NCBI GenBank assembly: GCA_963402885.1 | Contig: OY727099.1 | Span: forward strand, 8,606,001-8,670,000 | Length of the DNA stretch: 64,000 nt | Reading direction: 5' to 3' | From: Antedon bifida | Taxonomy: Eukaryota > Echinodermata > Crinoidea > Comatulida > Antedonidae | Part shown: in pieces, positions 15,163-40,582 of the stretch | Layout: each line of letters starts with the position of its first letter | Position numbering within the stretch: position 1 is the first letter of the stretch | Position numbers and translations under genes: made by a program | The notes under the pieces: generated by a model | Told to the model about the DNA's origin: nothing | The model's database searches: none | What the model saw: the letters and a program-made list of their open reading frames with translations, nothing else

Positions 15163-16842
15163 TTATTTTTGTCTGTCCATTTCATCCTTCATAGCTGGGA
15201 TAAGACCATCCCTAAACGCAATGTCAAGAAGCTCTTGACTACTTTCAACTTTGGGATGTTGTCTTCCAGCCCAAATCAAGAAGTGTCTAAACTCAAACCA
15301 GTCAATCATGCCATCTTGGTCCATATCCATAGCTTTCAAGCCTTGTTGGCTGTCTTCGCAGCGATAGCATCCGAAGTACGGCGCCATAAAACCGATATAA
15401 AAATGGTCAAAGGTCAAACGATTATCTACCTTGCTGCCACGTCTTCCATCCCATTCATCCCATGTTTTTTTAATCTCATCTATGAGGGTGTTAATGTATG
15501 GAGAGTTCTTGTTATCCTGTGCGATGATTCCGGCCATCTCATTTGTCAACTTTCCACCAGCTTGATCAAACAACATGGCAAGTCCTACTTTACTGTTATA
15601 TTCTTCCTTTCTGCCATCTGAAGCATTTTTCAACATCTGCTCCTTCATCTTTCCTGCCATTTCAAGAGTAAATTGTGGATCTTCACCAAACACATCATTT
15701 AGTTTTATCAGTATCATATCTGCATTCGCCATGTTTGAAATTCTAACTTCTTGTTCAATTCCGAAGAATTTGGCCATGTTGAATCCACCCTGGGCTGTAG
15801 GATCTGAGAAAATGAAGCCGAACACCAAGTCAGTTGCCCTTTCACCGTAGATTGGTTGCTTAGGATTTGGCTTTTTACCAGTGACTGCTTTGGTGACGTT
15901 GATAGCTGCTTTTCTGAGATATTCACAGTTGTATTGCTTCAATACTTTTGTGTTTCCAAGTCTGATCAAGTTCAAAATGGCAGTACAAGTATCGGCATGG
16001 CCAAGTGCAGCGCCCTCTATGCATAAGCCTGCCCACATGCCTGTAGCACCTGATGCAAGAACCTCCAGGTTGGCTGCATGCATTACACCCCACTGCTCGT
16101 GCTGGTGGAACAAAAGTTGTCCATCTTTCCATCCACATCGTTCCATCTCTTTCTTAACGGCATGTGTCCAAGCTCCTAGCTGCTCTGGCATAACAGCACC
16201 AAGATCTTCAAATGCTAAACCGAGAATTCTTTCTTCCTTAGGAAGACTGGAGAGATAGTTCACAACATGTCTGACACGTTCAGGATACTTAATCATAGTT
16301 GTGGAGAAATCTCTGAAATTGACTAAAATTAATGAATCTTTGGAAAGATTAGCTCGAATCCAGTCGATTTTTTCTTTGAAATACTTGCAAACTTCATCCA
16401 TGTTCATCTTATTATAATCAATCTTGTAATACATCAGGTCAAATTCGAGGAACACGTTATTTATGCCAAACTCTTTACATTTCAACATTCCAATTGGGAT
16501 GTCAGGCTGAGGAACTTTATCAACAATCTTCTCCCACAGTTCTGAGAAGGCAAACGCATTGGATAAGTCTTCACCCTTGGCATTTAGTTCTTCCAAAAAC
16601 AGATCTCCAATTCTTGTCTGATGGTTGAAAGATTCCACGATGAAGTATTTAAACCTGCATTTCTTAATCTCTTCATAGATTGCTCGCTTGTTCTCGATAG
16701 TGTGTGCCTTTAACGAAGCTACAGTCGTCTCTCGCAAAGAGTTGTCGAGAACAAACAGCTCCATGCTCTTCAATCTCTCATGATCCTTGTTAACTGCAGT
16801 CATTTTTTTTTCGATGTTTTCATGAAATTTAGCAGAACTCAT
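15163..16842 (-). CDS. HMGL-like (DRE-TIM metallolyase) / EF-hand fusion protein, copy 1
   Basis: Single coding exon of 559 residues. Residues about 28-300 match the HMGL-like TIM barrel of HMG-CoA lyase, isopropylmalate synthase and homocitrate synthase. The metal and catalytic signature LDNSLRETT places Asp33, Arg37 and Glu38; EDLGAVMPEQ (212-221) is the strand-6 region; LLFHQHEQWG supplies His246 and His248. The usual GN of the last metal ligand appears as Gly281-His282. Residues 385-460 form a helical linker. The C-terminus has a degenerate EF-hand (about 458-485) and a canonical loop DMDQDGMIDWFE (506-517). There is no signal peptide or membrane segment, so it is probably cytosolic. The start is set by a splice acceptor (TTTTTTTCAG) ten bases upstream of the ATG. 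The stop codon overlaps AATAAA. The fold is well supported; the reaction is unknown. Confidence 0.93.
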   Translation of the reverse strand: MSSAKFHENIEKKMTAVNKDHERLKSMELFVLDNSLRETTVASLKAHTIENKRAIYEEIKKCRFKYFIVESFNHQTRIGDLFLEELNAKGEDLSNAFAFSELWEKIVDKVPQPDIPIGMLKCKEFGINNVFLEFDLMYYKIDYNKMNMDEVCKYFKEKIDWIRANLSKDSLILVNFRDFSTTMIKYPERVRHVVNYLSSLPKEERILGLAFEDLGAVMPEQLGAWTHAVKKEMERCGWKDGQLLFHQHEQWGVMHAANLEVLASGATGMWAGLCIEGAALGHADTCTAILNLIRLGNTKVLKQYNCEYLRKAAINVTKAVTGKKPNPKQPIYGERATDLVFGFIFSDPTAQGGFNMAKFFGIEQEVRISNMANADMILIKLNDVFGEDPQFTLEMAGKMKEQMLKNASDGRKEEYNSKVGLAMLFDQAGGKLTNEMAGIIAQDNKNSPYINTLIDEIKKTWDEWDGRRGSKVDNRLTFDHFYIGFMAPYFGCYRCEDSQQGLKAMDMDQDGMIDWFEFRHFLIWAGRQHPKVESSQELLDIAFRDGLIPAMKDEMDRQK

Positions 16843-16852
16843 GATTGACTAG

Positions 16853-17556
16853 CTGAAAAAAAAGAGTAGTGTTTGTTTACCTACTGACAGATCTACTTTA
16901 ATTTAAATTTTCCCTAATGACTAGAGCTTTTTGATTGTTGTGCATTGATTTGCATCCATCATTTCTATAACTAGTTTTCAACAGGTTTTATCCTGATAAT
17001 GTCATAGTTTGGTTTGACAATAATGATATCAAATATTTTGAACCATGCTAAATTGTACATCTCGGTAACCAGTGGTGTAATGGCTATGAGCGCTCACTGG
17101 CTAAACTCAGGGGCCCCGGATCTTATGGGGCCCCCCTGAGCAGTGTCTAGAGAAAAAAGCAGACATTCAAATATGTCGAAAAAGGCTAGAATCACCCGAT
17201 GCCTCCAGCGTTGGAGGGCCCCTTGGGGTTCCTAAGCCAGGGGCCTCAGGTCTCTCCATTACGCCACTGTCAGTAACATAACACAAAAAAGAATACTTTA
17301 GTTTTACTTTTTACTTGACTCTAAAAGTATGTAATAACTTCACTTCAAGAATTTCTATATTAAGAAAGAAATAAAAATTCTAAAGTGTCTAATTCTAAAT
17401 ATCGCTGCACATATTTTAAGATGCATACCTATGAAGCAATTAAAATTCATATATATATATAATGTATAAAATTAATTAATTTACTTAATCATATCAAGTT
17501 ATAGAAGGTGTAAACACTGAAATTATATTACAGATAAAATAATCTACCTTACTTAC
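16853..17556 (-). other. Putative 5' UTR intron of copy 1
   Basis: The acceptor AG is at 16854-16853 on the minus strand. A good donor (AAA|GTAAGT) lies at 17556-17551. The intron contains a hAT-type MITE at 17070-17269. The pairing of these sites is inferred from the equivalent arrangement at copies 2-4. Confidence 0.45.
17070..17269. mobile_element. hAT-type MITE with 8-bp target-site duplication
   Basis: The ends are CAGTGGTGTAATGG and CCATTACGCCACTG. It is flanked by TCGGTAAC (17062-17069) and TCAGTAAC (17270-17277), eight bases with one mismatch. The length is 200 bp, with GGGGCCCC-rich subterminal sequence. The same family is at 52498-52696. Non-autonomous. Confidence 0.9.
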
Positions 17557-17655
17557 TTTGATACTTTTGTAGACTTAAATAAGTGCAAAATGTGTAGACT
17601 TTTAGGTCCTATTGGTACTGACTCTTCACAGTGTCCTATAGGCTGCTAATAATAA
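17557..17655 (-). other. Candidate non-coding first exon of copy 1
   Basis: Ends at the donor AAA|GTAAGT on the minus strand. A TATAAAAG lies upstream at 17688-17681, at a distance that would put transcription start near 17650. Copies 2 and 3 have the same TATAAAAG 120-160 bp before their donor. Confidence 0.35.
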
Positions 17656-17774
17656 TAATGGTCATGTCCGGTATGAACTGCTTTTATAACTAAATGTTAT
17701 CTTTTAAAGGCATTGAACAGAAAGGTTTGTTTGCTAAAGCTATTGACTAGATAAAAATCAGGATGTAGGATGTA

Positions 17775-18060
17775 ATTGAACAACCGACGTCACCAGCATT
17801 CAGTTGAATGACCACCGCCACCTGGGTTTAGTTGAATGACCACCGCCACCAGGGTTTAGTTGAATGACCACCGCCACCAGGGTTTAGTTGAATGACCACC
17901 GCCACCAGGGTTTAGTTGATTGAACGCCGCCACCAGGGTTTAGTTGAATGACCACCGTCACCAACGTTAATTGAATGACCACCATCACCAGGGTTTAGTT
18001 GAATGACCATCGCCACCAACGTTTAGTTGAATGACCACTAGGTTTCTTTTGAATAACCAT
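17775..18060. repeat. 28-bp minisatellite, about ten units
   Basis: The unit is about TTGAATGACCACCGCCACCA plus GGGTTTAG, with a period of 28 (for example starts at 17804 and 17832). Units at the left edge and after 17940 are more diverged. It lies upstream of the putative copy 1 promoter on the minus strand. Confidence 0.93.
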
Positions 18061-18175
18061 TTCCTGCCTGGTTTTATTGAAAAAACTCTTCTATCATGGT
18101 TTTAAATTCTACCCATTTTTCATGAACAAAACTTTGCTTTTTTCTTTTAAGAAAAATCCACTTCACTACATTCAA

Positions 18176-18295
18176 AATTGTAAACGTTAAAATATGTGCA
18201 CTTTAGAAATATTTGCAAGTCAACCATTGACTGGCCAAATATGCCCATATATAGGCACATCACATTTTTTGTCACATAATTGTAAACGTTAAAAT
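18176..18295. repeat. 84-bp copied segment between 18-bp direct repeats
   Basis: AATTGTAAACGTTAAAAT occurs at 18176-18193 and again, perfectly, at 18278-18295. The sequence between (about 18196-18279) matches 19850-19933 at almost every base, including the junction between array-flank sequence and a MITE. It therefore looks like a short insertion templated from the locus 1.66 kb away. Confidence 0.75.
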
Positions 18296-18698
18296 TGTTT
18301 TCAACCTGCATTTGTTGTGAACACAGCAAACAAATGGAATAGAGAAAAAGAATAAAGTAAAGTGTAAGGTGATATTAAAGGTGAAAAGTTGAATCCCAGG
18401 TTAATATACTACAATTGTGTTTACTATCTATAGTTTATGTGCAGCAAATCACATTACACTGTCTGATTGACAAACAGATTGACAAACAAACAAACGTCAT
18501 CAACTGTCAACTTGCCTAATATTTAATTTGGTTCAATTCATAACTTTATTTATGACAATAACTTGTTATTGAGTGTCATAACCAGTGTAAGTAACTTTAG
18601 TATCATATATATCGTGTTTTTATAAGTAACTCTAGATAATTCATTATACTATAATATTTAATATCATTCACCAACCTATAATTGTTTACATAAAAAAA

Positions 18699-18813
18699 AA
18701 TTTGACAAAAAAAGTGTGATGTGCCCAAATATGGTAGTGATATGCCCAAATATGTTCATATATGGGAACATCACATTTTTTTTGTCACATAAAGTTTGAT
18801 CGTGTAGAGAGAG
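18699..18813. mobile_element. CTCTGTCTACACTATCAAA MITE, partial
   Basis: Begins in the TTTGACAAAAAAAGTGTGAT region and ends TTTGATCGTGTAGAGAGAGC TTTAAG. The middle carries ATATGGTAGTGATATGCCC. The extreme left terminus is missing. Confidence 0.7.
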
Positions 18814-18930
18814 CTTTAAGAAATATGTTACATTTTTTATAATATTAGAAAATTGTACCCGGAACTCATTTCATATATAAAAAATCTTGTAATAAAAATA
18901 ATGTAATGTTGTGGTTGCTTTATGGGTAAT

Positions 18931-19025
18931 GTGTAGCTGTGGTTTTGTGGTTAACATGCTTGGCTTTTAATCCCACTGTCCAGGTTTTAAATCCTGACCT
19001 AGTGCCACTCCCTAATCCTCAAATT
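18931..19025 (+). mobile_element. tRNA-derived SINE-like element
   Basis: GTAGCTGTGGTTTTGTGGTT (box A-like) is followed by GTCCAGGTTTTAAATCCTG (box B-like) and CTAGTGCCAC. The box B tail matches the unit of the 24-bp minisatellite at 761-1096. Confidence 0.55.
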
Positions 19026-19884
19026 AAACATAGTTTATAAACATGGTAAAATAGTTTATCCATCTTTAATTCACAAGTTCCGTATGAAATAAATAAAAAA
19101 AAAAGTTGTACAATTATGAGTAAATCGAACTAGTGTGTTATGAGGTACAAGTGTCTAATGCCACGCCTTTAATGTCCACCTTTTCACTTTATGTATCTAT
19201 AATAGCACTAACCCAAAACTCTGTCTCCCCTTAAACCGCACGACCGACAGTACTGTCAGGTACCAGCAGATACCATTACACCACATATTAATTTAAAGAG
19301 AAAAATATGTATCAGTGCATACAGTATGGTAATTAGTTTCAGTAATTCAAATTCATGTTCTCTGTGCATGTAAATGTTAGCATAGTGTCTATAGTTTAAT
19401 TAGATTGGATTACAGTAGCAGTGAAGTAGGGCATTCATTTTCACGGTTTGTGACCCCTTGTAGATGGCCCGGCCGGTCTGAGTAGGTTGTTTTAAAAACA
19501 GTCCATATACAGTAGAACCTCCATTTTATGTGCGGTACGGGACCGAAAGGCGTACTTAAACAAGATCGTACTGTAGCTAAAAAGGCTGCCATGTTTGCCT
19601 ACAGCATGCAGGTGGTAAACAGAGTTCTTTTGTTTGGCCATTCTTTCATAAATTCTCTCGATATTATATTTTTCCAAGTAAGGACCTCTGCCTAAATCCC
19701 AAACTTTGTCTGGTTGCCCATAATGTGCATGTGTACATATTGTGTTTTTACTAGGTTAATCAAGTATAAAATATGTATGCATACCACATATGCAATAATT
19801 ATATTATCATAATGCTTTGGTATTTTTGTATAAAGTGCATTGTAAATACGTGCACTTTAGAAATATTTGCAAGTCAACCATTGA

Positions 19885-20789
19885 CTGGCCAAATATGTCC
19901 ATATATAGGCACATCACACTTTTTGTCACATAACGTACGTTTGATAGTGTAGACCAGGGGCGGATTTAGAGGGGGGGGGGGGGGGCCGGCCCTTGTGTAA
20001 TATACATATATATATTATGCTCCCATTTACATACGATTTTATCAACGATTTTACAGGAAAAGGGGGTACAAATCAACATTAAAAATCGTTAAAATCTTCA
20101 ATTTTTTTTTAAAAGTTGAACCGAGTTTAACTTCAACGTTAAAACTGACTGACCAATCGAATAGTTCATAAATTACGTCATCATTGTTTGTGGGAAAATA
20201 CGTACGCGCTGACAATTCTTGATTTTTTACAACGCGACGATGTTTTTGTACTCTTTTAAAGTCTGATATTTCAAAATAACAAGTGTAAGTAAAACTAAAT
20301 TTTAATATAAAAACAATTTAATTTTATGTGTAAAGACTAGATTAAGATATCAGCGAAAACATGTCCTAGGCCGGCTGGGTTGAAGCATCAAAAAGCGTAG
20401 CTTTTTCAATTTTCACACGGGCCCGGCTGTGCGTGACCGGCCTTGGCTTGGCAAAACTTCACGTCTATGTGTCCCAGCAACATCAAAAGAATCAAGAAAC
20501 CATTAACGATCGCGTAAAAAATGTGTAAAAATTCATGACGGGAAAACAGGCTTTAGGCGCAAAAAAAAACCAGTTCCGTATATTAAATGTGGTCTATAAA
20601 ACCCACTATATTCAGATAATTATATGACAAGAATTGACTGGCTAAAACGCCTCAAATGCTATCTCCGGGCGTCTAGAAAAAAATTTTTCCGGGGTAGCAT
20701 GCCCCAGGACCACCCTAGACGATTATTTTTCCCATATCGGCCCCCTCTTTATCAAGATCCTAGATCCGCCCCTGTAGACAGAGCTTTAG
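19885..20789. mobile_element. Partial palindromic MITE in array unit 2, split by a second element
   Basis: The units at 25730, 30950 and 37755 read CAACCATTA(A/G)(A/G)CCGCA without interruption. Here the same spot has GACTGGCCAAATATG...TTTGATAGTGTAGAC, then the 820-bp element, then TAGACAGAGCTTTA and back to GGCCGCAGACC. The other units preserve the empty site. Confidence 0.75.
19955..20774. mobile_element. CAGGGGCGGAT-type DNA transposon remnant, nested, TAGAC duplication
   Basis: The ends are CAGGGGCGGATTTAG and CTAGATCCGCCCCTG. TAGAC is duplicated at 19950-19954 and 20775-20779. The host MITE consensus (GTGTAGACAGAGC) has a single copy, so the empty site is known. The length is 820 bp, it carries a run of 16 G near the left end, and I see no transposase. 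The same 5-bp duplication size is seen for the related element at 42518-42675. Confidence 0.85.
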
Positions 20790-21976: not shown

Positions 21977-23656
21977 TTATTTTTTTTTATTCATTTCATC
22001 ATTCATAGCTGGGATAAGACCATCTCTAAACGCAATGTCAAGAAGCTCCTGACTACTTTCAACTTTGGGATGTTGTCTTCCAGCCCAAATCAAGAAGTGT
22101 CTAAACTCAAACCAGTCAATCATGCCATCTTGGTCCATATCCATAGCTTTCAAGCCTTGTTGGCTGTCTTCGCAGCGATAGCAACCAAAGTACGGCGCCA
22201 TAAAGCCATTATAGAAATGGTCAAAGGTCAGTTGGTTGTCTACCTTGCTGCCACCTCTTCCGTCCCATTCATCCCAAGATTCCTTAATCTCATCTATGAG
22301 TGTGTTGATGAATGAAGAGTTCTTGGTACCCTCTGCAATGACGTCAGCCATCTCTTTTGTCAACGTCCCACCAGCTTGATCAAACAACATGGCAAGTCCT
22401 ACTTTACTGTTATATTCTTCCTTTCTGCCATCTGAAGCATTTTTCAACATCTGCTCCTTCATCTTTCCTGCCATTTCAAGAGTAAATTGTGGATCTTCAC
22501 CAAACACATCTTTTAGTTTCATCAGTACCATATCTGCATTCGCCATGTTTGTAATTCTAACTTCCTGTTTCATTCCAAAGAATTCGGCCATATTGAATCC
22601 ACCCTGGGCTGTGGGATCTGAGAAAATGAATCCAAACACCAAGTCAGTTGCCCTTTCACCGTAGATTGGTTGCTTAGGATTTGGCTTTTTACCACCAGTG
22701 GCAGCTTTGGTGACCCTGATAGCTGCTTTTCTGAGATATTTGCAGTTGTATTGCTTCAAGACTTTTGTGTTTCCAAGTCTGATCAGATTCAAGATGGCAG
22801 TACAAGTATCGGCATGGCCAAGTGCAGCGCCCTCTATGCATAAGCCTGCCCACACACCTGTAGCTCCTGATGCAAGGACTTCCAGGTTAGCTGCATGCAT
22901 TAATCCCCACTGCTCGTGCTGGTGGAACAAAAGTTGTCCATCTTTCCATCCACATCTTTTCATCTCTTTCTTGATAGCAAGTGTCCAAGCTCCTAGCTGC
23001 TCTGGCAGTACTGCACCAAGATCTTCAAATGCTAAACCAAGAATTCTTTCTTCCTTAGGAAGACTGGAGAGATAGTTGACAACATGTCTGACACGTTCAG
23101 GATACTTCATCATGGTTGTGGACAAATCTCTAAAGTTGAGCAAAATCAGTGAATCTTTGGAAATATTTGCTCGAATCCAGTCAATCTTTTCTTTCAAATA
23201 CTTGCAAACTTCATCCATGTTCATCTTATTATAATCAATCTTATAATACATCAGATCAAACTCAATTAACACGTTCTTTATGCCAAACTCTTTACATTTC
23301 AACATTCCAATTGGGATGTCAGGCTGCGGAACTTTATCAACAATCTTCTCCCACAGTTCTGAGAAGGCAAATGCCTTGGACAGGTCTTCACCCTGTGCAA
23401 TAAGTTCCTTCAAGAACAGATCTCCAATTCTTGTCTGATGGTTGAAAGATTCCACGATGAAGTACTTGAACCCACATTTCTTAATTTCTTCATAGATTGC
23501 TCGCTTGTTCTCGATAGTGTGCGCCTTTAGAGTACCTACGGTTGTCTCTCGCAAAGAGATGTCGAGAACAAACAGTTCCAAGTTCTTCAATCTCTCTTTG
23601 TCCTTGTTAACTGCGGACATTTTCTTTTCAATGTCGGAGTAAAATGGTAAACTCAT
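21977..23656 (-). CDS. HMGL-like (DRE-TIM metallolyase) / EF-hand fusion protein, copy 2
   Basis: Intact single-exon frame of 559 residues, closely similar to copy 1 along its whole length. The barrel signature reads LDISLRETT (Asp32, Arg36, Glu37), with Ile where the other copies have Asn right after the metal-binding Asp. His245 and His247 form the HxH. The canonical EF loop DMDQDGMIDWFE is at 506-517, preceded by the degenerate hand around DEWDGRGGS. The ATG lies six bases downstream of a strong acceptor (TTATTTTTCAG, AG at 23664-23663), so translation starts at the top of the second exon. The tail (MNDEMNKKK) is shared with copies 3 and 4. Expected to be an active cytosolic protein if the family fold is right; its substrate is not known. 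Confidence 0.93.
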   Translation of the reverse strand: MSLPFYSDIEKKMSAVNKDKERLKNLELFVLDISLRETTVGTLKAHTIENKRAIYEEIKKCGFKYFIVESFNHQTRIGDLFLKELIAQGEDLSKAFAFSELWEKIVDKVPQPDIPIGMLKCKEFGIKNVLIEFDLMYYKIDYNKMNMDEVCKYLKEKIDWIRANISKDSLILLNFRDLSTTMMKYPERVRHVVNYLSSLPKEERILGLAFEDLGAVLPEQLGAWTLAIKKEMKRCGWKDGQLLFHQHEQWGLMHAANLEVLASGATGVWAGLCIEGAALGHADTCTAILNLIRLGNTKVLKQYNCKYLRKAAIRVTKAATGGKKPNPKQPIYGERATDLVFGFIFSDPTAQGGFNMAEFFGMKQEVRITNMANADMVLMKLKDVFGEDPQFTLEMAGKMKEQMLKNASDGRKEEYNSKVGLAMLFDQAGGTLTKEMADVIAEGTKNSSFINTLIDEIKESWDEWDGRGGSKVDNQLTFDHFYNGFMAPYFGCYRCEDSQQGLKAMDMDQDGMIDWFEFRHFLIWAGRQHPKVESSQELLDIAFRDGLIPAMNDEMNKKK

Positions 23657-24878
23657 GGTTGACTGAAAAATAAAATATAAAGTCCATAATTTTTATTTTA
23701 ATAAAACATGCATGTGCTTTAAGAGCAGGTGAAGTGTCCCTCACCCTTTTTTTTTTATAAAACCATAATTAAAAATGCAAGTCAGTGAAATTAATTTGTA
23801 AGTTCAGCCTATTGCAATTTTCTATGACTTTGGAATAAAAAAAATCTACAGATTTGAATTGTTGAGATAATAAAAATGCAATTATCACTTTCTCGGATTT
23901 GTGGTTGTCATTAATTTTATTTTCCATAAGTATACAACAGCTATTTATATAAATAAAATGACAATGTGTGAAAAGAGATCAAAAAGTAAAAATTGACAAC
24001 CTAAGCAGTAGTAAACTATTTATATATTATGTTTTTCAGTTCCAAGCTAACTGATATAGCAATATATACAATCTAAATTAATTTTGCTTCTTTTACAGGA
24101 AAAAAATTGCTCACCTTATGCATATGATTAAATTTCTGCTATAAATAAAATTATATTTATATAATAACTCAACCACTTTCAATTTTCAACTCTATTTGTC
24201 AGTTTTTTTTATTTGCTTTGTGAATGAATTAGCAATATATATAAAGGGTATTGGGAAACTTTGAAAATAATCCCATGGGCTTAAATCTCTTTCTAATTAT
24301 TGTTTTTGAGAGCAATATATTATAGTATAAATGTGGAATTGGTTTGTATATTAAACATATTTTAAGTTACTGAAGTAAGTTTTCAAAACCAAACAACTCC
24401 AAAAAGTATTTTTTTAATACCCTTTTATTTTACAAATGCAGTTATGTTGGAAATTATTAACCTGATTGCCATCAATTTTCAACTCTGTCTAACAATAGTT
24501 TGTTTTAGATTATTCTGTTATTTGAAAAGGTTAGAAATAATGTGCAGTCCTTTAGCTTTAGAACTCAAGTCTTTTCTCTACCAGTATAAAATAGCTGTTT
24601 AAAACTAATTGTGATAGAAATGATTTTAAAAGCATTGTATAATTGTTTATTAATTATTATTAAAGTAAAACACAAAATTGTCTGAAGTTTGTCTCCTTCA
24701 ATGTTTAAACTAGTTCAAATCAGTTTGCACTAGTTTGCACTAAAATAAAACTTCCCTTCTTTTTTACTTTAAATTTATCTAACTTTACTTATTCTTGACC
24801 GCTTGACTAACAAATTGTGCTAATACCAACAGAATGAACCTATGGATTCTTCCTCTCACCCCATCTTTTTAATCTTAC

Positions 24879-27115: not shown

Positions 27116-28790
27116 TTATTTTTTTTTGTTCATTTCATCATTCATAGCTGGGATAAGACCATCTCTAAACGCGACATCTAGCAGCTCCTGACTTGTTTTA
27201 ACTCCAGGATGTTGTCTTCCAGCCCAAATCAAGAAGTGCCTGAACTCAAACCAGTCAATCATGCCATCTTGGTCCATATCCATAGCTCTCAAGCCTTGTT
27301 GGCTGTCTTCGCAGCGATAGCATCCAAAGTATGGCGCCATAAAACCATTATAGAAATGGTCAAAGGTCAGTTGGTTATCTACCTTACTTCTACCTCTGCC
27401 GTCCCATTCAAGATTCCTTAATTTCATCTATGAGGGTGTTGATGAAGGAAGAGTTCCTGGTACCCTCTGCAATGACGTCAGCCATCTCTTTTGTCAACTT
27501 TCCACCAGCTTGATCAAACAACATGGCAAGTCCTACTTTACTGTTATATTCTTCCTTTCTGCCATCTGAAACATTTTTCAACATCTGATCTTTCATCTTT
27601 CCTGCCATTTCAAGTGTAAATTGTGGATCTTCACCAAACACATCTTTTAGTTTCATCAGTACCATATCTGCATTCGCCATGTTTGAAATTCAAACTTCTT
27701 GTTTCATTCCAAAGAATTCAGCCATGTTAAATCCACCCTGTGCTGTAGGATCTGAGAAAATGAATCCGAACACCAAGTCAGTGGCCCTTTCACCGTAGAT
27801 TGGTTGCTTGGGATTTGGCTTTTTACCACCAGTGGCAGCTTTGGTGACTCTGATAGCTGCTTTTCTAAGATATTTGCAGTTGTATTGTTTCAAGACTTTT
27901 GTGTTTCCAAGTCTGATCAGGTTCAAAATGGCAGTACAAGTATCGGCATGGCCAAGTGCAGCGCCCTCTATGCATAAGCCTGCCCACATGCCTGTAGCAC
28001 CTGATGCAAGGACTTCCAGGTTAGCTGAATGCATTAAACCCCACTGCTCGTGCTGGTGGAACAAAAGTTGTCCATCATTCCATCCACACCTTTCCATCTC
28101 TCTCTTGATAGCAAGTGTCCAAGCTCCTAGCTGCTCTGGCAGTACTGCACCAAGATCTTCATATGCTAAACCCAGGATTCGTTCTTTTTTAGGAAGACTG
28201 GAGAGATAGTTGACAACATGTCTGACACGTTCAGGATACTTCATCATGGTTGTGGACAAATCTCTAAAGTTGACAAAAATCAGTGAATCTTTGGAAATAT
28301 TTGCTCGAATCCAGTCGATCTTTTCTTTGAAATACTTGCAAACTTCATCCATGTTCATCTTATTATAATCAATCTTATAATACATCAGGTCAAACTCAAT
28401 GAACACGTTCTTTATGCCAAACTCTTTACATTTCAACATTCCAATTGGGATGTCAGGCTGAGGAACTTTATCAACAATCTTCTCCCACAGTTCTGAGAAG
28501 GCAAATGCATTGGATAAGTCTTCACCTTTGGCAATAAGTTCCTTCAAGAACAGATCTCCAATTCTTGTCTGATGGTTGAAAGATTCCACGATGAAGTACT
28601 TGAACCCACATTTCTTAATTTCTTCATAGATTGCCCGCTTGTTCTCGATAGTGTGCGCCTTTAGAGTAGCTACGGTTGTCTCTCGCAAAGAGTTGTCGAG
28701 AACAAACAGTTCCATGTTCTTCAATCTCTCTTTGTCCTTGTTAACTGCGGACATTTTCTTTTCAATGTCGGAGTAAAATGGTAAACTCAT
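27116..28790 (-). pseudogene. HMGL-like/EF-hand fusion gene, copy 3, disabled
   Basis: Nearly identical to copy 4 over the full length, with 1675 bp against 1680. Two lesions break it. An Arg codon CGA in the stretch KQEVRISNM has become TGA (27690-27692), a CpG-type transition. Five bases are missing in the Trp-Asp-Glu region (junction 27410/27411), shifting the frame before both EF-hands. The barrel-coding half, including LDNSLRETT and HQHEQWG, is still open, so a truncated barrel of about 365 residues could be made. The splice acceptor before the ATG, the candidate first exon and TATAAAAG are all intact. The loss looks very recent, although an assembly error could mimic it. Confidence 0.88.
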
Positions 28791-30034
28791 GGTTGACTGA
28801 AAAATAAAACATTTAATAAAATATATAAAGTCCATAATTTTTATTTTAATAAAATGTGCTTGCGCTTTAAGAGCAGGTGAAGTGGTTTTAGAATAAACAA
28901 AATCTGCAGATTTGAATTGTTGAGATAATAAAAATGCAATTATCACTTTCTTGGATTAATTTTCTTTTCCACACATTATAATATTTAAAGTACAACAGCT
29001 ATTTATATAAATAAAATGACAATGTGTGAAAAGAGGTCAAAATAAGTAAAAATTGATTTGAATTGAATTGAAGCATTGACCAACAAATGATGACAAGTAA
29101 ACTAAAAGCTATAATGACATTTTACAATTGCAAGCTAACTGATATAGCAATATATAAAATCTAAATTAATTAATTAATAGCTTCTTTTACAGGAAAAAAA
29201 CTTTACCTTAGGTTTCTTTCCAACTTGATCTTTTGGCTGACATTTTCTAAACATTTCTGCTCACCTGCCTATGATTAAATTTCTGCTATAAATAAAATTG
29301 TATATATTATATATCAATTAATTAATAACTCAACTACCTTCAATTTTCAACTCTATTTGTTTTAAAAGGTCAATTATTTTTTATTTGCTCTGTGGATGAA
29401 TTAGCAATATTATAAAAAGGGTGTTGTGAAACTTTGAAAATAATCCCATGGGCTTAAATCCTTTGTTTTTGAGAGAAATATATTGTAGTATAAATGTGGC
29501 ATTGGTTTGTATATTAAACATATTTACAAAAGTAAGTTTTCAAAACCAAACAATTCCAAAGATTATTTTTTTAATACCCTTTTATTTTACAAATGCAGTT
29601 ATGTTGGAAATTATTAACCTGACTGCTATCAATTTTCAACTCTGTCTAACAATAGTTTGTTTTAAATTATTATTCTGTTATTTGAAAAGGGTAATTAGAA
29701 ATAATGTGCAGTCCTTTATATTAGCTTTAGAATTCTTCTCTTCTTTTAAAAAGTCTTTTCTCTACCTAGTAAAAAATAGCTGTTTAAAACTAATTGTGAT
29801 GGAATGATTTTAAAAGCATTGTATAATTGTTTAATTATTATTAAAGTAAAACACAAACTTGTCTGAAGTTTGTCTCCTTCAATGTTTAAACTAGTTCAAA
29901 CCAGTTTGCACTATATCAAAACTTAACATCCCTTCTCTTTGACTTTAAATGTATCCAACTTTACTTATTCTTGACTGATTGACCAACAAATTGTGCTAAT
30001 ACCAATACCTCTCACCCCATCTTTTAAATCTTAC

Positions 30035-32342: not shown

Positions 32343-34022
32343 TTATTTTTTTTTGTTCATTTCATCATTCATAGCTGGGATAAGACCATCTCTAAACGCG
32401 ACATCTAGCAGCTCCTGACTTGTTTTAACTCTAGGATTTTGTCTGCCAGCCCAAATCAAGAAGTGCCTGAACTCAAACCAGTCAATCATGCCATCTTGGT
32501 CCATATCCATAGCTCTCAAGCCTTGTTGGCTGTCTTCGCAGCGATAGCATCCAAAGTATGGCGCCATAAAACCATTATAGAAATGGTCAAAGGTCAGTTG
32601 GTTATCTACCTTACTTCTACCTCTGCCGTCCCATTCATCCCAAGATTCCTTAATTTCATCTATGAGGGTGTTGATGAAGGAAGAGTTCCTGGTACCCTCT
32701 GCAATGACGTCAGCCATCTCTTTTGTCAACTTTCCACCAGCTTGATCAAACAACATGGCAAGTCCTACTTTACTGTTATATTCTTCCTTTCTGCCATCTG
32801 AAACATTTTTCAACATCTGATCTTTCATCTTTCCTGCCATTTCAAGTGTAAATTGTGGATCTTCACCAAACACATCTTTTAGTTTCATCAGTACCATATC
32901 TGCATTCGCCATGTTTGAAATTCGAACTTCTTGTTTCATTCCAAAGAATTCAGCCATGTTAAATCCACCCTGTGCTGTAGGATCTGAGAAAATGAATCCG
33001 AACACCAAGTCAGTGGCCCTTTCACCGTAGATTGGTTGCTTGGGATTTGGCTTTTTACCACCAGTGGCAGCTTTGGTGACTCTGATAGCTGCTTTTCTAA
33101 GATATTTGCAGTTGTATTGTTTCAAGACTTTTGTGTTTCCAAGTCTGATCAGGTTCAAAATGGCAGTACAAGTATCGGCATGCCCAAGTGCAGCGCCCTC
33201 TATGCATAAGCCTGCCCACATGCCTGTAGCACCTGATGCAAGGACTTCCAGGTTAGCTGAATGCATTAAACCCCACTGCTCGTGCTGGTGGAACAAAAGT
33301 TGTCCATCATTCCATCCACACCTTTCCATCTCTCTCTTGATAGCAAGTGTCCAAGCTCCTAGCTGCTCTGGCAGTACTGCACCAAGATCTTCATATGCTA
33401 AACCCAGGATTCGTTCTTTTTTAGGAAGACTGGAGAGATAGTTGACAACATGTCTGACACGTTCAGGATACTTCATCATGGTTGTGGACAAATCTCTAAA
33501 GTTGACCAAAATCAGTGAATCTTTGGAAATATTTGCTCGAATCCAGTCGATCTTTTCTTTGAAATACTTGCAAACTTCATCCATGTTCATCTTATTATAA
33601 TCAATCTTATAATACATCAGGTCAAACTCAATGAACACGTTCTTTATGCCAAACTCTTTACATTTCAACATTCCAATTGGGATGTCAGGCTGAGGAACTT
33701 TATCAACAATCTTCTCCCACAGTTCTGAGAAGGCAAACGCATTGGATAAGTCTTCACCCTTGGCAATAAGTTCCTTCAAGAACAGATCTCCAATTCTTGT
33801 CTGATGGTTGAAAGATTCCACGATGAAGTACTTGAACCCACATTTCTTAATCTCTTCATAGATTGCTCGCTTGTTCTCGATAGTGTGTGCCTTTAAAGTA
33901 GCTACGGTCGTCTCTCGCAAAGAGTTGTCGAGAACAAACAGTTCCATGTTCTTCAATCTCTCTTTGTCCTTGTTAACTGCGGACATTTTCTTTTCAATGT
34001 CGGAGTAAAATGGTAAACTCAT
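32343..34022 (-). CDS. HMGL-like (DRE-TIM metallolyase) / EF-hand fusion protein, copy 4
   Basis: Intact 559-residue single-exon frame. The frame extends 15 codons further upstream, but that part lies beyond a splice acceptor (TTTTACAG, AG at 34030-34029), so I place the start at the MSLPFYSD methionine. It keeps LDNSLRETT, EDLGAVLPEQ, HQHEQWG and the canonical EF loop DMDQDGMIDWFE. It differs from copy 3 at very few residues, for example RQNPRVKTS for RQHPGVKTS, so the two arose from one recent duplication. The coding region looks functional, but its presumed promoter block is missing and its 5' intron is about 3.2 kb through insertion of a LINE fragment and a second repeat. Expression is therefore in doubt. 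Confidence 0.93.
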   Translation of the reverse strand: MSLPFYSDIEKKMSAVNKDKERLKNMELFVLDNSLRETTVATLKAHTIENKRAIYEEIKKCGFKYFIVESFNHQTRIGDLFLKELIAKGEDLSNAFAFSELWEKIVDKVPQPDIPIGMLKCKEFGIKNVFIEFDLMYYKIDYNKMNMDEVCKYFKEKIDWIRANISKDSLILVNFRDLSTTMMKYPERVRHVVNYLSSLPKKERILGLAYEDLGAVLPEQLGAWTLAIKREMERCGWNDGQLLFHQHEQWGLMHSANLEVLASGATGMWAGLCIEGAALGHADTCTAILNLIRLGNTKVLKQYNCKYLRKAAIRVTKAATGGKKPNPKQPIYGERATDLVFGFIFSDPTAQGGFNMAEFFGMKQEVRISNMANADMVLMKLKDVFGEDPQFTLEMAGKMKDQMLKNVSDGRKEEYNSKVGLAMLFDQAGGKLTKEMADVIAEGTRNSSFINTLIDEIKESWDEWDGRGRSKVDNQLTFDHFYNGFMAPYFGCYRCEDSQQGLRAMDMDQDGMIDWFEFRHFLIWAGRQNPRVKTSQELLDVAFRDGLIPAMNDEMNKKK

Positions 34023-34320
34023 GGTTGACTGTAAAATAAAACATTCAATAAAACATATACAGTCCATAATTTTTATTTTAATAAAATGTGCTTGTGCTTG
34101 AAGAGCAGGTAAATTGCCTATTGCAATTTTCTATGATTTTAGAATAAACAAAATCTGCAGATTTGAATTGTTGAGATAATAAAAGGCATTGATCACTTTC
34201 TTGGATTTGTCGTTAATTTTCTTTTCCACACATTAATATTTAAAGTACAACAGCTATTTATATAAATAAAATGACAACAATGTGTGAAGAGATATCAAAA
34301 TAAGTAAAAATTGATTGAAG

Positions 34321-34380
34321 CATTGACCACCTAAGAATTGACCACCTAAGCATTGACCACCTAAGCATTGACCACCTAAG
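34321..34380. repeat. 15-bp short tandem repeat, four units
   Basis: CATTGACCACCTAAG is repeated four times in the putative 5' intron of copy 4. Copies 2 and 3 have one unit or none at this place. Confidence 0.9.
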
Positions 34381-34949
34381 CAGTGGTCAACATGACAAGT
34401 AAACTAAAAGCTATAATGACATTTTACAATTGCAAGCTAACTGATATAGCAATATATAAAATCTAAATTCATTAATTAATAGCTTCTTTTACAGGAAAAA
34501 ACTTTACCTTAGGTTTCTTTTCAACTTGATCGTTTGGACGAGTTTTTCTAAACATTTCTGCTCACCACCTGTCTATGATTAAATTTCTGCTATAAAAAAA
34601 ATGATATTTATATAGATTAATAACTCAAGTACCTTCAATTTTCAACTCTACGGTATTTGTTTTAAAAAGTTGTTTTTATTTGCTTTGTGGATGAATTAGC
34701 AATATTATAAAAAGGGTATTGTGAAACTTTGAAAATAATCCCATGGACTTAAATCTCTTTTTAATTAACTATTGTTTTTGAGAGCAATATATTGTAGTAA
34801 AAATGTGGCATTGGTTTGTATATTAAACATATTTTAAGTTACTAAAATAAGTTTTCAAAACCAAACAACTCCAATGAGTATTTTTTTAATACCCTTTTAT
34901 TTTACAAATGTTGGAAATTATTAACATGACTGCCATCAATGTTTTAACT

Positions 34950-36169
34950 TAGTAATAAACAATATTTATTCAACATCAACAGACAGTTTACATTGTTTAT
35001 GGTCAAGACACACAGAAGCCAAAGTGGCATGTCTTTGTAGTCCCTAAGCATAAAACATAGACGGACGCATTACAATTACAAAAAAAGACATTTTGATAGA
35101 CAGAAAAATAAAAAAATACAAAGTGAGATCAAGCATAATAAAAACATATCATAGAAATATAATGCAATCATGGAGGGTGTTAAAAATTTTAGAAGTAATG
35201 CAAAATAGTTACAACTCCATGATGCAGTGTACCCCTCCAATTTGGACCACCGTCGGATTTCAGAGATCTCGCTCCTGATGTCTACGGCTGACTTTGGCAG
35301 CCAGCCGCAGCCGTCAGTCAGTCCTGGACATCTCCGGCGTCCATCTAGGCTGTACTGTGTGTGTACACCGATTGGATGAGGAGTGGACTGGTCCACAATT
35401 GGAGGGGTCATGCGTCTTAGGCGTTAAATCTAAAATATATTGTAAGCATAATATGCAGGCAATAGGTAACAATAATTTTAATGATCTTATAAGCTAGCAA
35501 TATGTTTCAAATATCATCTTTTTTATCATTGTACTTTAGTATAGGGAGCGAGGTCATGTGATTTTGTTCTAGAGTAGACTGGAGTTTATTCCAGTAAGAT
35601 GGTCCTTCAATGAAAATTGATCTTTTATTTATTTCTAGTCTACTGTGTGGGATATATATTTGCGTTTCTTAATGTCTTTGAGCGATCAGTTTTAGGGTTT
35701 AAATCAATCAAGTTGTTTATAGGAAAGGGAAGTTCTTGGAGATGATATTTGAACATAAAGCATGCAATTTGAATTTTATATATATCGTATATATTTAACA
35801 TTTTTAAACTTTGTAATAGTGGTTTGGAGACTGTTCTCATCGGTGAGTTTTTAATCATTCTAGCTATACGTTTTTGTAATTTATGTATTTGATAACATGT
35901 AAATGTATAAAATCATTTATTTTATCATTTTATCATAATGAATAAGGTTAATATTAAAATCGCCCATAATGTGGCATATTTTATTTTCCGAATTTATTTT
36001 GAATAGGAGATCTTCAATTTTCTTGGCGAATGCATCGACAGAGATTATTCCAATGCTAGTATTTTTATTTTTGTTTGGTATTTCTATAAATAAGCTTTCA
36101 CAAATATCATTGTGGGTTTTGATGTCGATTCTTTCAATAACGTTTATGTGTTCATGAACATAAAAGCCT
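34950..36169 (-). mobile_element. Internally deleted LINE fragment inserted in the copy 4 intron
   Basis: Comparison with copy 3 (around 29640) shows about 1.2 kb of extra sequence here. Minus-strand reading from 36160 gives an endonuclease-like stretch ending HIMGDFNINL, then after a short gap (35858-35640) a C-terminal LINE stretch containing LNIYDIYKIQIACFMFKYH. The reverse transcriptase between them is absent. The remaining 35500-34950 is LINE 3' sequence carrying a small inverted-repeat element at 35231-35407. Confidence 0.75.
35231..35407. mobile_element. GC-rich MITE-like element inside the LINE fragment
   Basis: Begins ACCCCTCCAATTTGGACCA and ends with the complementary TGGTCCACAATTGGAGGGGT, enclosing about 140 bp that is much GC-richer than its surroundings. 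No open frame of interest. Confidence 0.65.
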
Positions 36170-36274
36170 AATAGTTTGTTTTAAATTATTATTCTGTTTA
36201 ATTTGGAGATGACTTGGTAATATTGTAAAAGTTATTGTAAAAGTTATTTGAAAAGGGTAAAAATAATTAGAAAC

Positions 36275-36859
36275 TAGAGGGTACTCCGAGAGTACAAACC
36301 TCTGCCTACTGTAAAATTCCCCTACATAAAATGTCCCTGGAAAATATATATATATTTTTTTACATTTTTTTTTATTAGATGTAAATGTAAATAGGCTAAC
36401 TGCACACTACAAAGTTGTAGATGAGAGTTTGGTGTAATGGTTATGTATCCAGCCTCTCACAGTTGAGATCGCTGGTTCAAGTCCCGCTGAGGTTTTTTTT
36501 TTTTTTTTTTTTTTTTTCTTTTTTTTTTTTGTGGACCTTGATCTTTGACCCTGACCCTTCAAAATTTAACCACAATTATATGATGAGTCATTGATCATTG
36601 TGGCTAAGTTTGGTGAGAATCGGATAAAAACTGTGGTCTCTAGGCATTAAAATAGTTTTTGGTTAGTTGTGACCTTGACCTATGACCTTTTCCCCTCAAA
36701 TTCGAACTTGTCCGAGCTTTTGAGGCATAGATCATTGTGGCCAAATTTGGTGAGAATCGGATAAAAACTGTGGCCTCCAGGCTGTTCACAGACACACACA
36801 CTAACACACGCACACGCAAACATACAGGGGTGAAAACATAACCTCCTTGGCGGAGGTAA
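36275..36859 (+). mobile_element. Composite repeat with a tRNA-Gln-like head, inserted in the copy 4 intron
   Basis: Absent from copy 3, where the empty site TTAGAAATAATGTGCAG is at about 29695. It opens CTAGAGGGTACTCCGAGAGT and closes CCTCCTTGGCGGAGGT. Inside, TTTGGTGTAATGGTTATGTA (box A-like, as in tRNA-Gln) and CTGGTTCAAGTCCCGCTGAG (box B-like) precede a long T-run. Two tandem, related blocks containing GGTGAGAATCGGATAAAAAC then follow. The family is not assigned. Confidence 0.65.
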
Positions 36860-37182
36860 TAATGTGCAGTCCTTTATATTGGCTTTAGAATTCAAGTCTT
36901 TTCTCTACCAGTATAAAATAGCTGTTTAAAACTAATTGTGATGGAATGATTTTAACAGCATTGTATAATTATTTATTAATTATTATTAAAGCAAAACACA
37001 AACTTGTCTGAAGTTTGTCTCCTTCAATGTTTAAACTAGTTCAAACCAGTTTGCACTACAACAAAACTTCCCTTCTCTTTGACTTTAAATTTATCCAACT
37101 TTACTTATTCTTGACCGCTTGACTAACAAATTGTTTTAATACCTTACAGTAAACTCCCAAGAGAATGAACCTATGGATTCCC

Positions 37183-37202
37183 AAACCCCCCCCCCCCCCC
37201 CC
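37183..37202. repeat. Poly-C tract
   Basis: A homopolymer run of about 19 C at the place where copies 2 and 3 have CTCACCCC. It is prone to length error in sequencing. Confidence 0.9.
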
Positions 37203-37225
37203 TCATCACATCTTTTTAATCTTAC

Positions 37226-37298
37226 CTGTAAATAAACTGTTGTCCTTGAAGGAATATTCTTCTGAAGCGCAATTCTTTATGTTGGATAACCGAGCACC
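37226..37298 (-). other. Candidate first exon of copy 4, promoter side deleted
   Basis: The donor TTTACAG|GTAAGATT is kept (GT at 37225-37224), but at 37298 the homology jumps from GAGCACCA straight to TAAATTC. About 390 bp present at copy 3 (30110-30490) is lost, including the TATAAAAG. Confidence 0.45.
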
Positions 37299-38833
37299 AT
37301 AAATTCTCTTATGGCATTTTTCCAAGTTAAGAGCTGTACTTACATATCCATGTAATCTTTGGTCTATATTGTGTAAATTTGTTGAGTGCTTTGAATCATC
37401 TCAGCATTGTAGTTTCTTCTTTTTATTTCATTTTTCTTGCACTGAGTAAATATACCTGAATGGAACCGGGTTGGCGAAACGCACTTTCTTTTGTTTGACC
37501 ATTCTTTCATAAATCCTGTTGATATTTTATTTTTCAGTTCAGACATCTATTTACCAAGTGACTTATAAATCCTTTTAATTTCCAACCATTGTCTGCTTTT
37601 CCATAATGCGCATGTATGTACATATTGTGTATTTATTACTAGGTTAATCAAGTATAAAATATGTATGCATACCACATGCAATAATTATATTATAATGCTT
37701 TGATATAAGTGCAAGGTAACTACGAGCACTTAGAAATATTTGCAAATCAACCGTTAGACCGCAAACCTTTTGAAATTAGGAAGGTTGTTTTAGTTTCCAC
37801 CACTCAAAGAGCAGAGTGAAATTTACTTTCTCAAACATATTTCCATAGTAGTATCAATTAAAAACCGTGAAGGCAGCGAATAAAAAAAGTCTTTCACACC
37901 TAACTGGGCCTAATACTTCACAGTCACTCACCATTACCGCCGCACAGCAGGTGAATATTCTTTAATTGGGCATTAAAGCTGGAGGGATTGCAGTGCAAAA
38001 GTGTAGTAGCACCATACAAAATCGTCTAGTTTATTGATTGATATTTCAGAATCACAAGAAACAATTTGTATTCCTCCAGTCCCCACTATATAATCGAGTA
38101 TTATAATTAAGTTGTCTTAAATTAAATGGGCTAGATGCCTCTAAAGTTGAATTGAATAGAAAGGAAAGAAAAGGATATAATATAACATACTGTATGTACA
38201 GATTTTATACAATATTTCATTTATTGTGTAATACAGTAACCCAAGTGAAATTTTCCAAATAATACTAAAACTAATATTCTTTAGCTTTTATATTATGACT
38301 ATACACTGCAAATAAACAAAGTTAATATAATTGCAATTTCTGTTAGGTTAAAATATATGACAACAAATCAGTCAAAAATGAATTGCCATCATTGGCGGAT
38401 TCAGGATTTCAAAATAATACACATCTTAAAAGATCAACCATAAAACATAAACTGAATAATAATGAATATATCCTAATTAGTATTATAAAATAGTATTTAT
38501 TTTAATGTATTATATTTATAAAGTAATATTATAATTAATTATTTTGTTACTTGCAATGTCTATCGGTGAAGTATTTAAAAAGAAGGAAATTATTCAGCCA
38601 AGAAAATAAATTAGCAATAATATTTACAGTTAGACAGCCAAAAAAAATTATCTTTACCTTAAAGTTTAAATAAATATGTAAACAATTTAATACTTATGTT
38701 AGAACAAGTATAGTTATTAGGCACTTCAAAATGTAAACAAATTGTTTTACATCGTTTTATTAGGCAGTAAGGGAAATTAATTTTCAGAAAGTATGATGAG
38801 ATGACACAAATAAAAACAACTGCTGCTTCTATT

Positions 38834-40582
38834 TTATTCTGAGTTTGCAGCCTTATTTTTATTTCTGTCCATTTCATCCTTCATAGCTGGGATAAGACCA
38901 TCCCTAAACGCGATGTCGAGCAGCTCCTGACTTGTTTTAACTTCAGGATGTTGTCGCCCAGCCCATATCAGGAAGTGTTTAAACTCAAACCAGTCAATCA
39001 TGCCATCTTGGTCCATATCCAAAGCTCTCAAGCCCAATTGACTGTCTTCACAGCGATAGCATCCAAAGTACGGCGCCATGAAACCAATATAGAAGTTGTC
39101 AAAGGTCAGTTGGTCATCCACCACACCATCTCTTCCATCCCATTCATTCCAGGTTTCCTTGATCTCTTCAATAAGAGTGTTGATGTGAGGCAAATTCTTA
39201 TTACCTTCAGCAATGATTCCTGCCATCTTTTCAGTCAGTTTCCCGCCAGCCTGATCAAACAACATGGAAAGCCCTAACTCACTGTTATACTCTTCCTTTC
39301 TGCCATCCGCAGCATTTTGTACAATCTGTTGTTTCATCTGTCCAGAAATCTCCAGCGTGAACTGTGGGTCTTCTCCAAAAACATCATTTAGTTTCATCAG
39401 AATCATTTCTTCATTCGCCATAGTTGTGATTCTAACTTCACGCTCTACTCCCAAGAATTCTGCCATGTCAAATCCATCTTGTGCCGTGGGGTCCGAAAAG
39501 ATGAAACCATATACCAAGTCGGTTGCTCTGTCACCATAAATCGGTTGCTTAGGGTTTGGCTTCATACCAGTGACAGCTTTGGTAACATTGATGGCTGCCT
39601 GCCTAACATATGGACAGTTATATTGCTCCATAACAGTCTTGTTTCCAAGTCTGATAAGGTTTAGAATGGCCGTACATGTATCAGCATGACCAAGTGCAGC
39701 GCCCTCTATGCATAAGCCTGCCCACATCCCAGTAGCGCCTGCTCCAAGTGCTTTTAGGTTAGCTGAATGCATTAAACCCCACTGCTCGTGCTGGTGGAAC
39801 AAAAGTTGTCCATCTTTCCATCCACATCTTTCCATCTCCTTTTTCATAGCATGTATCCATGCAGCTAACTGTTCTGGCATACCAGCACCGAGATCTTCAA
39901 CTGCTAAACCAAAGATTCTTTCTCCTTTCGGAAGGCTGGACAGGTAGTTGATGACATGTCCAACACGTTCTGGATATTGAATCATTGATGTTGTGAAATC
40001 TCGGAAGTTGATCACAATCATAGAATCTTTGGAAAGATTAGCTCGAATCCAGTCTATTCTGTCCTTTAACAACTTGCAAACTTCATCCATGTTCATCTTA
40101 TTATAATCAATCTTATAATACATCAGGTCAATCTCAAGGAACACGTTCTTTATGCCAAACTCTTTGCATTTCAACATTCCAATTGGGATGTCAGGCTGAG
40201 GAACTTTATCCACAATCTTCTCCCACACTTCTGAGAAGGCAAATGCCTTGGACAGGTCTTCACCTTGGGCAATAAGTTCCTTCAAGAACAGATCTCCAAT
40301 TCTTGTCTGATGGATGAAAGATTCTACCATGAAGTACTTGAATCCACATTTCTTAATTTCTTCATAGATTGCCCGCTTGTTCTCGATAGTGTGTGCTCTA
40401 AGAGAAGCTACGGTCGTCTCTCGCAAAGAGTTGTCAAGAACAAACAGTTCCATGGTCTTCAGCCGCTCAAGCTCCACATTGACCTCATGCATGCCTTTTT
40501 TAACATCTGAACAAAATGTCGGTTTTAGCGATGATATGGAACGTTGAAGTTTTTTCTCCAACTTGCTTAGAATTTCGCTCAT
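38834..40582 (-). CDS. HMGL-like (DRE-TIM metallolyase) / EF-hand fusion protein, copy 5 (diverged)
   Basis: Intact single-exon frame of 582 residues, the most distant copy. The N-terminus is 17 residues longer, with a charged helical start (MSEILSKLEKKLQRS), and the C-terminus has an added KNKAANSE. Catalytic landmarks are kept: LDNSLRETT (Asp50, Arg54, Glu55), EDLGAGMPEQ, HQHEQWG (His263, His265), and the EF loop DMDQDGMIDWFE at 522-533 after a degenerate hand around NEWDGRDGVVDD. An acceptor-like TTTATTTTTAG lies seven bases before the ATG, as in the other copies. The flank upstream is unrelated to the other units, so its promoter is different. The stop codon overlaps AATAAA. It may be the oldest member or one specialised for a different task. 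Confidence 0.93.
   Translation of the reverse strand: MSEILSKLEKKLQRSISSLKPTFCSDVKKGMHEVNVELERLKTMELFVLDNSLRETTVASLRAHTIENKRAIYEEIKKCGFKYFMVESFIHQTRIGDLFLKELIAQGEDLSKAFAFSEVWEKIVDKVPQPDIPIGMLKCKEFGIKNVFLEIDLMYYKIDYNKMNMDEVCKLLKDRIDWIRANLSKDSMIVINFRDFTTSMIQYPERVGHVINYLSSLPKGERIFGLAVEDLGAGMPEQLAAWIHAMKKEMERCGWKDGQLLFHQHEQWGLMHSANLKALGAGATGMWAGLCIEGAALGHADTCTAILNLIRLGNKTVMEQYNCPYVRQAAINVTKAVTGMKPNPKQPIYGDRATDLVYGFIFSDPTAQDGFDMAEFLGVEREVRITTMANEEMILMKLNDVFGEDPQFTLEISGQMKQQIVQNAADGRKEEYNSELGLSMLFDQAGGKLTEKMAGIIAEGNKNLPHINTLIEEIKETWNEWDGRDGVVDDQLTFDNFYIGFMAPYFGCYRCEDSQLGLRALDMDQDGMIDWFEFKHFLIWAGRQHPEVKTSQELLDIAFRDGLIPAMKDEMDRNKNKAANSE

Follow-up and report, generated by a model that had tools for sequence, protein, structure and literature searches.

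Tandem ilborin genes in the crinoid Antedon bifida, and cyanobacterial relatives adjacent to ovoA

We analyzed a 64,000-nucleotide (nt) stretch of the genome of the crinoid Antedon bifida (contig OY727099.1; C12:8606001-8670000), hereafter the window, in which five tandem gene copies are devoted to proteins that join an HMGL-like DRE-TIM barrel to a C-terminal EF-hand. We assign these genes to the ilborin family and explain their products as metalloenzymes that respond to Ca2+, and we give the array and this explanation together a probability of about 0.85. Membership in the family, which appears safe although not formally closed, is indicated by architecture, motifs, length, and cyanobacterial relatives of like form.

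The original prediction knew of no EF-hands in known members of the barrel superfamily. The fusion of barrel and EF-hand is not new, having been published in 2022, when ilborin was described in Open Biology from the sponge Halisarca dujardini as a protein of 569-586 amino acids (aa) with a TIM barrel and an EF-hand; according to the accessible text, it has been described and localized but not biochemically characterized (PMC8864356). The same source gives homologs of 560-610 aa from sponges, cnidarians, ctenophores, echinoderms, and the flatworm Macrostomum, along with two cyanobacterial relatives and a labyrinthulid relative at 39% identity. What is new here is a tandem array within a known family, together with the position beside ovoA of cyanobacterial EF-hand relatives, recovered in two bacterial families. 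Exact peptide patterns recovered no close relatives among genome contigs (seven stretches matched, none of them a relative) or among viral contigs, and tblastn against plasmids returned insignificant matches for copy 5 (best E value, 3) and no match for a cyanobacterial relative.

The array, its barrel, and its EF-hand

The proposal of five same-strand copies, four open and one broken, was confirmed by the open reading frame (ORF) listing and by alignment. Intact copies encode 559-582 aa, and their identities to the copy 1 protein are 89, 89, and 81%.

15163-16842, minus strand: ilborin copy 1, 559 aa, intact
21977-23656, minus strand: ilborin copy 2, 559 aa, intact
27116-28790, minus strand: ilborin copy 3, broken; otherwise very close to copy 4
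32343-34022, minus strand: ilborin copy 4, 559 aa from the ATG at 34022, intact
38834-40582, minus strand: ilborin copy 5, 582 aa, intact; the most diverged (synonymous divergence of 0.72-0.90 from the others)

Counted from its first ATG, the copy 4 ORF (32343-34067) would give 574 aa. Copy 3 retains a truncated ORF (27690-28946) that terminates upstream of the EF-hand. The copy has two lesions: a TGA at 27690-27692, at a codon that reads Arg in the other copies, and a 5-nt deletion near 27427, which throws the sequence out of frame ahead of the EF-hand. The repeat units of copies 3 and 4 are 90.5% identical across nearly 4 kb, including two 300-nt stretches at 100% (a rounded figure, as one stretch includes the TGA difference). 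A six-frame search of the whole genome (315.6 Mb, 27 contigs) yielded at least six matches, all within the array.

The intact copies are under purifying selection. By a simple counting method, the ratio of nonsynonymous to synonymous divergence (dN/dS) lay at 0.11-0.18 for each of the six pairings among the four intact copies. Synonymous divergence was lowest between copies 2 and 4 (0.19) and highest between copies 1 and 5 (0.90). These ranges indicate that the array grew stepwise and that its products were kept under selection. Because direct repeats span the coding length of the copies and dN/dS is low in every pair, the array is more than a chance arrangement. The original prediction regarded the amplification as lineage specific, a view we do not retain, since several paralogs are usual in the family: four in Halisarca (A-D) and three each in Amphimedon and Sycon, with Amphimedon elsewhere given as two (PMC8864356).

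The barrel is of the HMGL/DRE-TIM type, closest to homocitrate, isopropylmalate, and citramalate synthases, and the original assignment was borne out by three comparisons. First, a nine-sequence profile (four window proteins and five bacterial relatives) matched homocitrate synthase (3a9i/2ztj) at about 5e-11; the main match began in the second half of the barrel, crossed the post-barrel region, and reached residue 352 of 376/382, and a weak second match lay over the Arg-Glu strand. Second, hhalign against five cyanobacterial synthases, two of them typed (one isopropylmalate, one citramalate), gave a probability of 96.4% and an E value of 1.1e-9. Third, an AlphaFold model (mean predicted local distance difference test [pLDDT], 75.9; predicted template modeling score [pTM], 0.59) has a predicted barrel of seven strands of at least three residues plus a two-residue eighth. 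The suggested structural comparison with homocitrate synthase and HMG-CoA lyase came out in favor of the synthases. Among the best 50 Foldseek matches, ranks 1-14 were all homocitrate, methylthioalkylmalate, isopropylmalate, or citramalate synthases (best E value, 1.5e-9), and HMG-CoA lyase first appeared at rank 33 (1.2e-6).

It had also been anticipated that Pfam would report PF00682 and an EF-hand. Both were matched, with the HMGL-like domain ahead of the EF-hand in each of the four intact copies, but at scores below the cutoffs: 11.7-23.1 bits for the HMGL-like domain in all five proteins (cutoff, 29) and 21.1-21.9 bits for EF-hand_5 in four of the five (cutoff, 25.9). For this run, copy 1 was entered without its first Met and copy 3 as its truncated ORF, which ends before the EF-hand. 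When PF00682 was searched against the A. bifida genome, two other places were listed and the array was not. Three features of copy 1 define the predicted metal site and the calcium-binding loop.

16729-16734, minus strand: Arg37-Glu38, aligned to R12-E13 of Thermus homocitrate synthase; invariant in nine of nine sequences
16099-16107, minus strand: His246-x-His248, aligned to H195/H197 of Thermus homocitrate synthase; invariant in nine of nine sequences
15292-15327, minus strand: canonical EF-hand loop DMDQDGMIDWFE, residues 506-517; identical in the four intact copies

Five of the nine sequences in which R37, E38, H246, and H248 are invariant are bacterial. We take Arg37-Glu38 to be the substrate-arginine and metal-ligand pair of DRE-TIM enzymes and His246-x-His248 to be the metal-ligand motif. 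Conserved Arg-Glu and His ligands have been reported for ilborin, which covers these roles in part (PMC8864356). At the C terminus, the predicted calcium-binding unit holds up as one canonical DxDxDG loop, with Glu at position 12, in each intact copy; the plural "EF-hands" of the original prediction was too strong. In the AlphaFold model, short strands at residues 475-477 and 512-514 are placed like those of an EF-hand pair, which suggests that a degenerate partner accompanies the canonical hand.

In the protein of each intact copy, the DRE-TIM metalloenzyme barrel is followed by a helical post-barrel segment resembling that of homocitrate and isopropylmalate synthases and, at the C terminus, by an EF-hand unit. 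We propose that Glu38, His246, and His248 hold a divalent metal, which would, with Arg37, polarize a 2-oxo-acid-like or hydroxy-acid substrate, allowing a carbon-carbon bond to be made or broken. Binding of Ca2+ at the EF-hand may alter the post-barrel segment and hence activity. In the hhalign alignment, the two post-barrel histidines of the synthases correspond to Leu339 and Phe345 of copy 1, a region with pLDDT below 50. Because the animal copies apparently lack the post-barrel histidine of the acetyl-CoA-dependent synthases, an aldolase or lyase reaction seems more likely than that of a Claisen synthase.

Several observations weigh against this explanation. None of the five proteins had a Pfam match at the curated cutoff, and neither of the two proteins run against NCBIfam (copies 1 and 5) had one there, the citramalate synthase equivalog scoring 20.1 and 20.4 bits against a cutoff of 450. 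Searching the PDB with a single sequence recovered weak calmodulins plus a single coproporphyrinogen oxidase, and no barrel. The alignment that indicates loss of the histidine crosses residues 333-364, where pLDDT is under 50. Furthermore, H292 of Thermus homocitrate synthase, the catalytic histidine of the post-barrel segment, sits in an unaligned insertion of the profile alignment, and a His is present close to the synthase-histidine position in the cyanobacterial EF-hand relatives. Two Halisarca ilborin primers taken from PMC8864356 were uninformative against the window, as shuffled sequences scored at least as high in 164 of 300 cases. Finally, the abundance of ilborin, to which we return below, is odd for a catalyst.

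Cyanobacterial relatives and ovoA

The lasting interest of the array lies in a gene pairing seen in cyanobacteria. Of 388 genomes in the order containing Okeania, 6 were matched by a profile built from the four window proteins. Four have the EF-hand form (G045, G087, G187, and G306, that of G187 with in-frame stops), and two have barrel-only relatives that lack the EF-hand (G203 and G359). PF00682 scored 14.2-21.8 bits in four of four cyanobacterial relatives, below the cutoff as in A. bifida. A further genome, G251, contains a C-terminal ilborin remnant with stops (85% identity over 94 residues). G045, G087, and G187 belong to one family, which also holds G002, a Coleofasciculus; G306 and G251 belong to another, that of Okeania sp. 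SIO2F4 (G001).

In all five genomes with the EF-hand form or its remnant, a full-length ovoA, the gene for the synthase of the antioxidant ovothiol, lies upstream of ilborin on the same strand, across a gap of 93-308 nt. These pairings comprise three intact ilborin genes, one with stops (G187), and one remnant (G251; 93 nt). Two of the OvoA proteins were tested for both domains, and both exceeded the cutoffs of 400 bits for TIGR04344 and 170 bits for TIGR04345 (616 and 215 bits in G087; 621 and 200 bits in G306). The original prediction had guessed vaguely at a secondary-metabolite role, a guess that gains unexpected, partial support from this neighborhood. No result bears on the symbiosis-related role suggested alongside it. 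Within the ovoA-ilborin stretch, no promoter or terminator signal exceeded the shuffled controls.

Wider sampling added few carriers. A class-wide draw of 388 cyanobacterial genomes gave no match at 1e-12, the known carriers evidently falling outside that draw. The nine-row profile matched 10 of 20 and 37 of 61 genomes in two wider family searches; beyond three plus three carriers (G359 and the G251 remnant included), these matches were weak (E values of 1e-8 to 3e-4), and the five that we opened were ordinary synthases (two typed). The barrel-only relatives (L107, 10161-11612; L108, 1-1521) do not lie beside ovoA, and their best, weak scores are to homocitrate synthase models. Neither entered the pairing count, since both are without the EF-hand and share only 29% and 23% identity with the cyanobacterial form.

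The pair may have moved between families as a unit. Across the family boundary, identity is 89% for OvoA and 92% for ilborin but 78-79% for UvrA, the single control protein, and these values suggest joint transfer as the simplest reading. OvoA of G306 and G251, members of one family, are 89.4% identical, which falls within the range of 88.7-89.8% that they show to those of the other family. The ovoA-side neighbor common to G045, G087, and G187 is absent from G306 and G251; the ilborin-side neighbors differ among G045, G087, and G306, and the G187 contig ends there.

It is possible, though less likely than not, that ilborin acts with OvoA, a sulfoxide synthase and methyltransferase, in the ovothiol pathway, on a thiohistidine intermediate or the three-carbon lyase product, and that the animal copies do so under Ca2+ control. 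Besides the five adjacencies and the differing neighbors of a pair more alike between families than UvrA, the rarity of long OvoA frames is consistent with this idea: the N-terminal domain exceeds its cutoff in 137 of the 388 genomes of the order, where most listed frames are of about 450 aa, and frames of at least 700 aa occur in only 7. The A. bifida genome itself contains OvoA-like exons, with eight matches over model positions 25-444 at C11:13448212-13460601. However, none of these alone exceeds the cutoff, they are unlinked to the ilborin array on C12, and the methyltransferase part is weak on C11. The strongest match to the C-terminal methyltransferase domain, also below cutoff, is a group of three exons at C14:663450-664636, possibly a stand-alone thiohistidine methyltransferase-like gene. 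Comparison of the A. bifida exons with cyanobacterial OvoA types gave no clear nearest type.

Other evidence runs against a joint pathway. The five adjacencies may represent one arrangement spread by transfer and descent, and with G203 and G359 counted, adjacency falls to five of seven. A decaying ilborin adjoins an open ovoA in G187 (L104, 16374-18113, with in-frame stops) and G251 (L159, 8265-8546, the remnant); since ilborin is broken there and OvoA is open, ovothiol synthesis in these genomes probably does not need ilborin. Long OvoA frames (about 41% identical) also occur in G248 and G264, where no ilborin lies beside them. To our knowledge, no chemistry joins a DRE-TIM enzyme to the known ovothiol steps. 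Moreover, annelids and molluscs have OvoA (PMC4768315), and the accessible text of the 2022 survey lists no ilborin homolog for either (PMC8864356). That text mentions neither ovothiol nor OvoA, and we found no published link between ovothiol or ovoA and ilborin-like enzymes among the matches listed.

A bolder proposal, which we consider unlikely, is that ilborins are Ca2+-gated ovothiol (thiohistidine) enzymes in marine animals; in its boldest form, they would replace or supply the lyase step, and the cyanobacterial ovoA-ilborin pair would be a small transferable cassette. The sulfoxide lyase OvoB has the fold of a pyridoxal phosphate-dependent enzyme, and ilborin as OvoB itself is ruled out by the DRE-TIM barrel seen in the model and the Foldseek matches. 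That ilborin does the job of OvoB is speculation. By the accessible part of one account, hydrozoans are the only metazoans with an identified OvoB (PMC8623360). The lyase step is thus unassigned in other metazoans, a gap that counts in favor of an ilborin role.

Gene structure and surroundings

The coding region of each intact copy is a single open exon, and no sign of a signal peptide was seen by eye. All five copies have an acceptor-like AG ending 6 or 10 nt ahead of the ATG, and copies 2, 3, and 4 share a conserved GTGAGC donor upstream. Together these make a noncoding first exon likely, and on these grounds we reject single-exon retrocopies.

34029-34565, minus strand: probable 5' intron of copy 4, as judged from sequence; donor GTGAGC, acceptor AG ending 6 nt before the ATG
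34508-34555, minus strand: optional in-frame coding exon MFRKTRPNDQVEKKPK, weak, upstream of copies 3 and 4 only

In the alignment, the optional exon is absent from copy 2. A first coding exon that would bring the protein to 577 aa, as in Halisarca ilborins A and B, was considered and is not relied on, as it is confined to copies 3 and 4.

Several repeats surround the genes. A tandem array of 28-nt units lies between copies 1 and 2 (17739-18051), and an open frame just upstream of copy 5 (40853-41227, minus strand) looks by eye like the end of a non-long-terminal-repeat retrotransposon reverse transcriptase. An 84-nt inverted repeat, 90% complementary (12003-12086 and 42808-42891), brackets the whole array at a distance of 30.7 kb and is probably two copies of a dispersed repeat. 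Short tandem repeats at 743-1192 and 50474-51087, open in several frames with units SGFNLKLV and CSPSLLHIAAPVF, are likely satellite-like sequence.

Function and known systems

The authors of the 2022 description favored a Ca2+-regulated enzyme of central energy metabolism, with which the ovoA neighborhood would be a historical accident. This alternative is consistent with the distant resemblance of ilborin to enzymes of acetyl-CoA and 2-oxo-acid metabolism and with expression in energy-demanding larval flagellated cells (PMC8864356). We regard it as possible, though again less likely than not; against it, the nearest solved relatives are mostly amino-acid-biosynthetic synthases, no substrate is known, and the ovoA pairing is left unexplained. 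It is quite improbable that ilborin serves mainly in Ca2+ buffering, storage, or structure, with the barrel kept as a crystallin-like scaffold: tandem amplification would suit a need for dosage, and ilborin is a major larval protein of flagellated cells whose transcript, in one cell cluster of Amphimedon, accounts for about 20% of molecules (PMC8864356), but a scaffold requires neither strong purifying selection nor Arg-Glu and HxH motifs that are invariant out to bacteria.

The family was published in 2022 without a reaction. The ovoA-ilborin pair supplies a concrete pathway in which function becomes testable, and it touches the question of which enzyme acts as the sulfoxide lyase of animal ovothiol synthesis. 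If the connection is true, an abundant sponge larval protein with relatives in marine invertebrates joins antioxidant chemistry, perhaps under Ca2+ control.

Four known systems bear comparison with the array. OvoA is a genomic neighbor and not a homolog: it is encoded by the adjacent gene in five cyanobacterial genomes and has exon-level counterparts in A. bifida, but the protein is unrelated to ilborin and is linked to it by neighborhood only. The homocitrate, 2-isopropylmalate, and citramalate synthases (PF00682) share the barrel, the Arg-acidic and HxH metal motifs, and a similar post-barrel segment; in contrast, the window proteins fall below the family cutoffs, carry an extra C-terminal EF-hand unit, and apparently do not conserve the post-barrel histidines. 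HMG-CoA lyase, which is not known to carry an EF-hand, has the fold in common and ranks behind the synthases in Foldseek. Its metal-site layout is likewise shared, although the first metal ligand of ilborin is Glu, as in homocitrate synthase, rather than Asp (PMC8864356).

Ilborin, compared here through its published description, is the closest counterpart. The likenesses are a TIM barrel followed by a single C-terminal canonical EF-hand, the Arg-Glu and HxH motifs, a length whose low end is one residue short of the reported range, several paralogs per genome, and cyanobacterial relatives with like domain order. In the accessible text of the 2022 description, the word "intron" does not occur and "tandem" occurs only within "tandem MS/MS." Separate genes were inferred there from transcripts (PMC8864356), whereas in A. 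bifida the paralogs form one tandem array that includes a broken copy.

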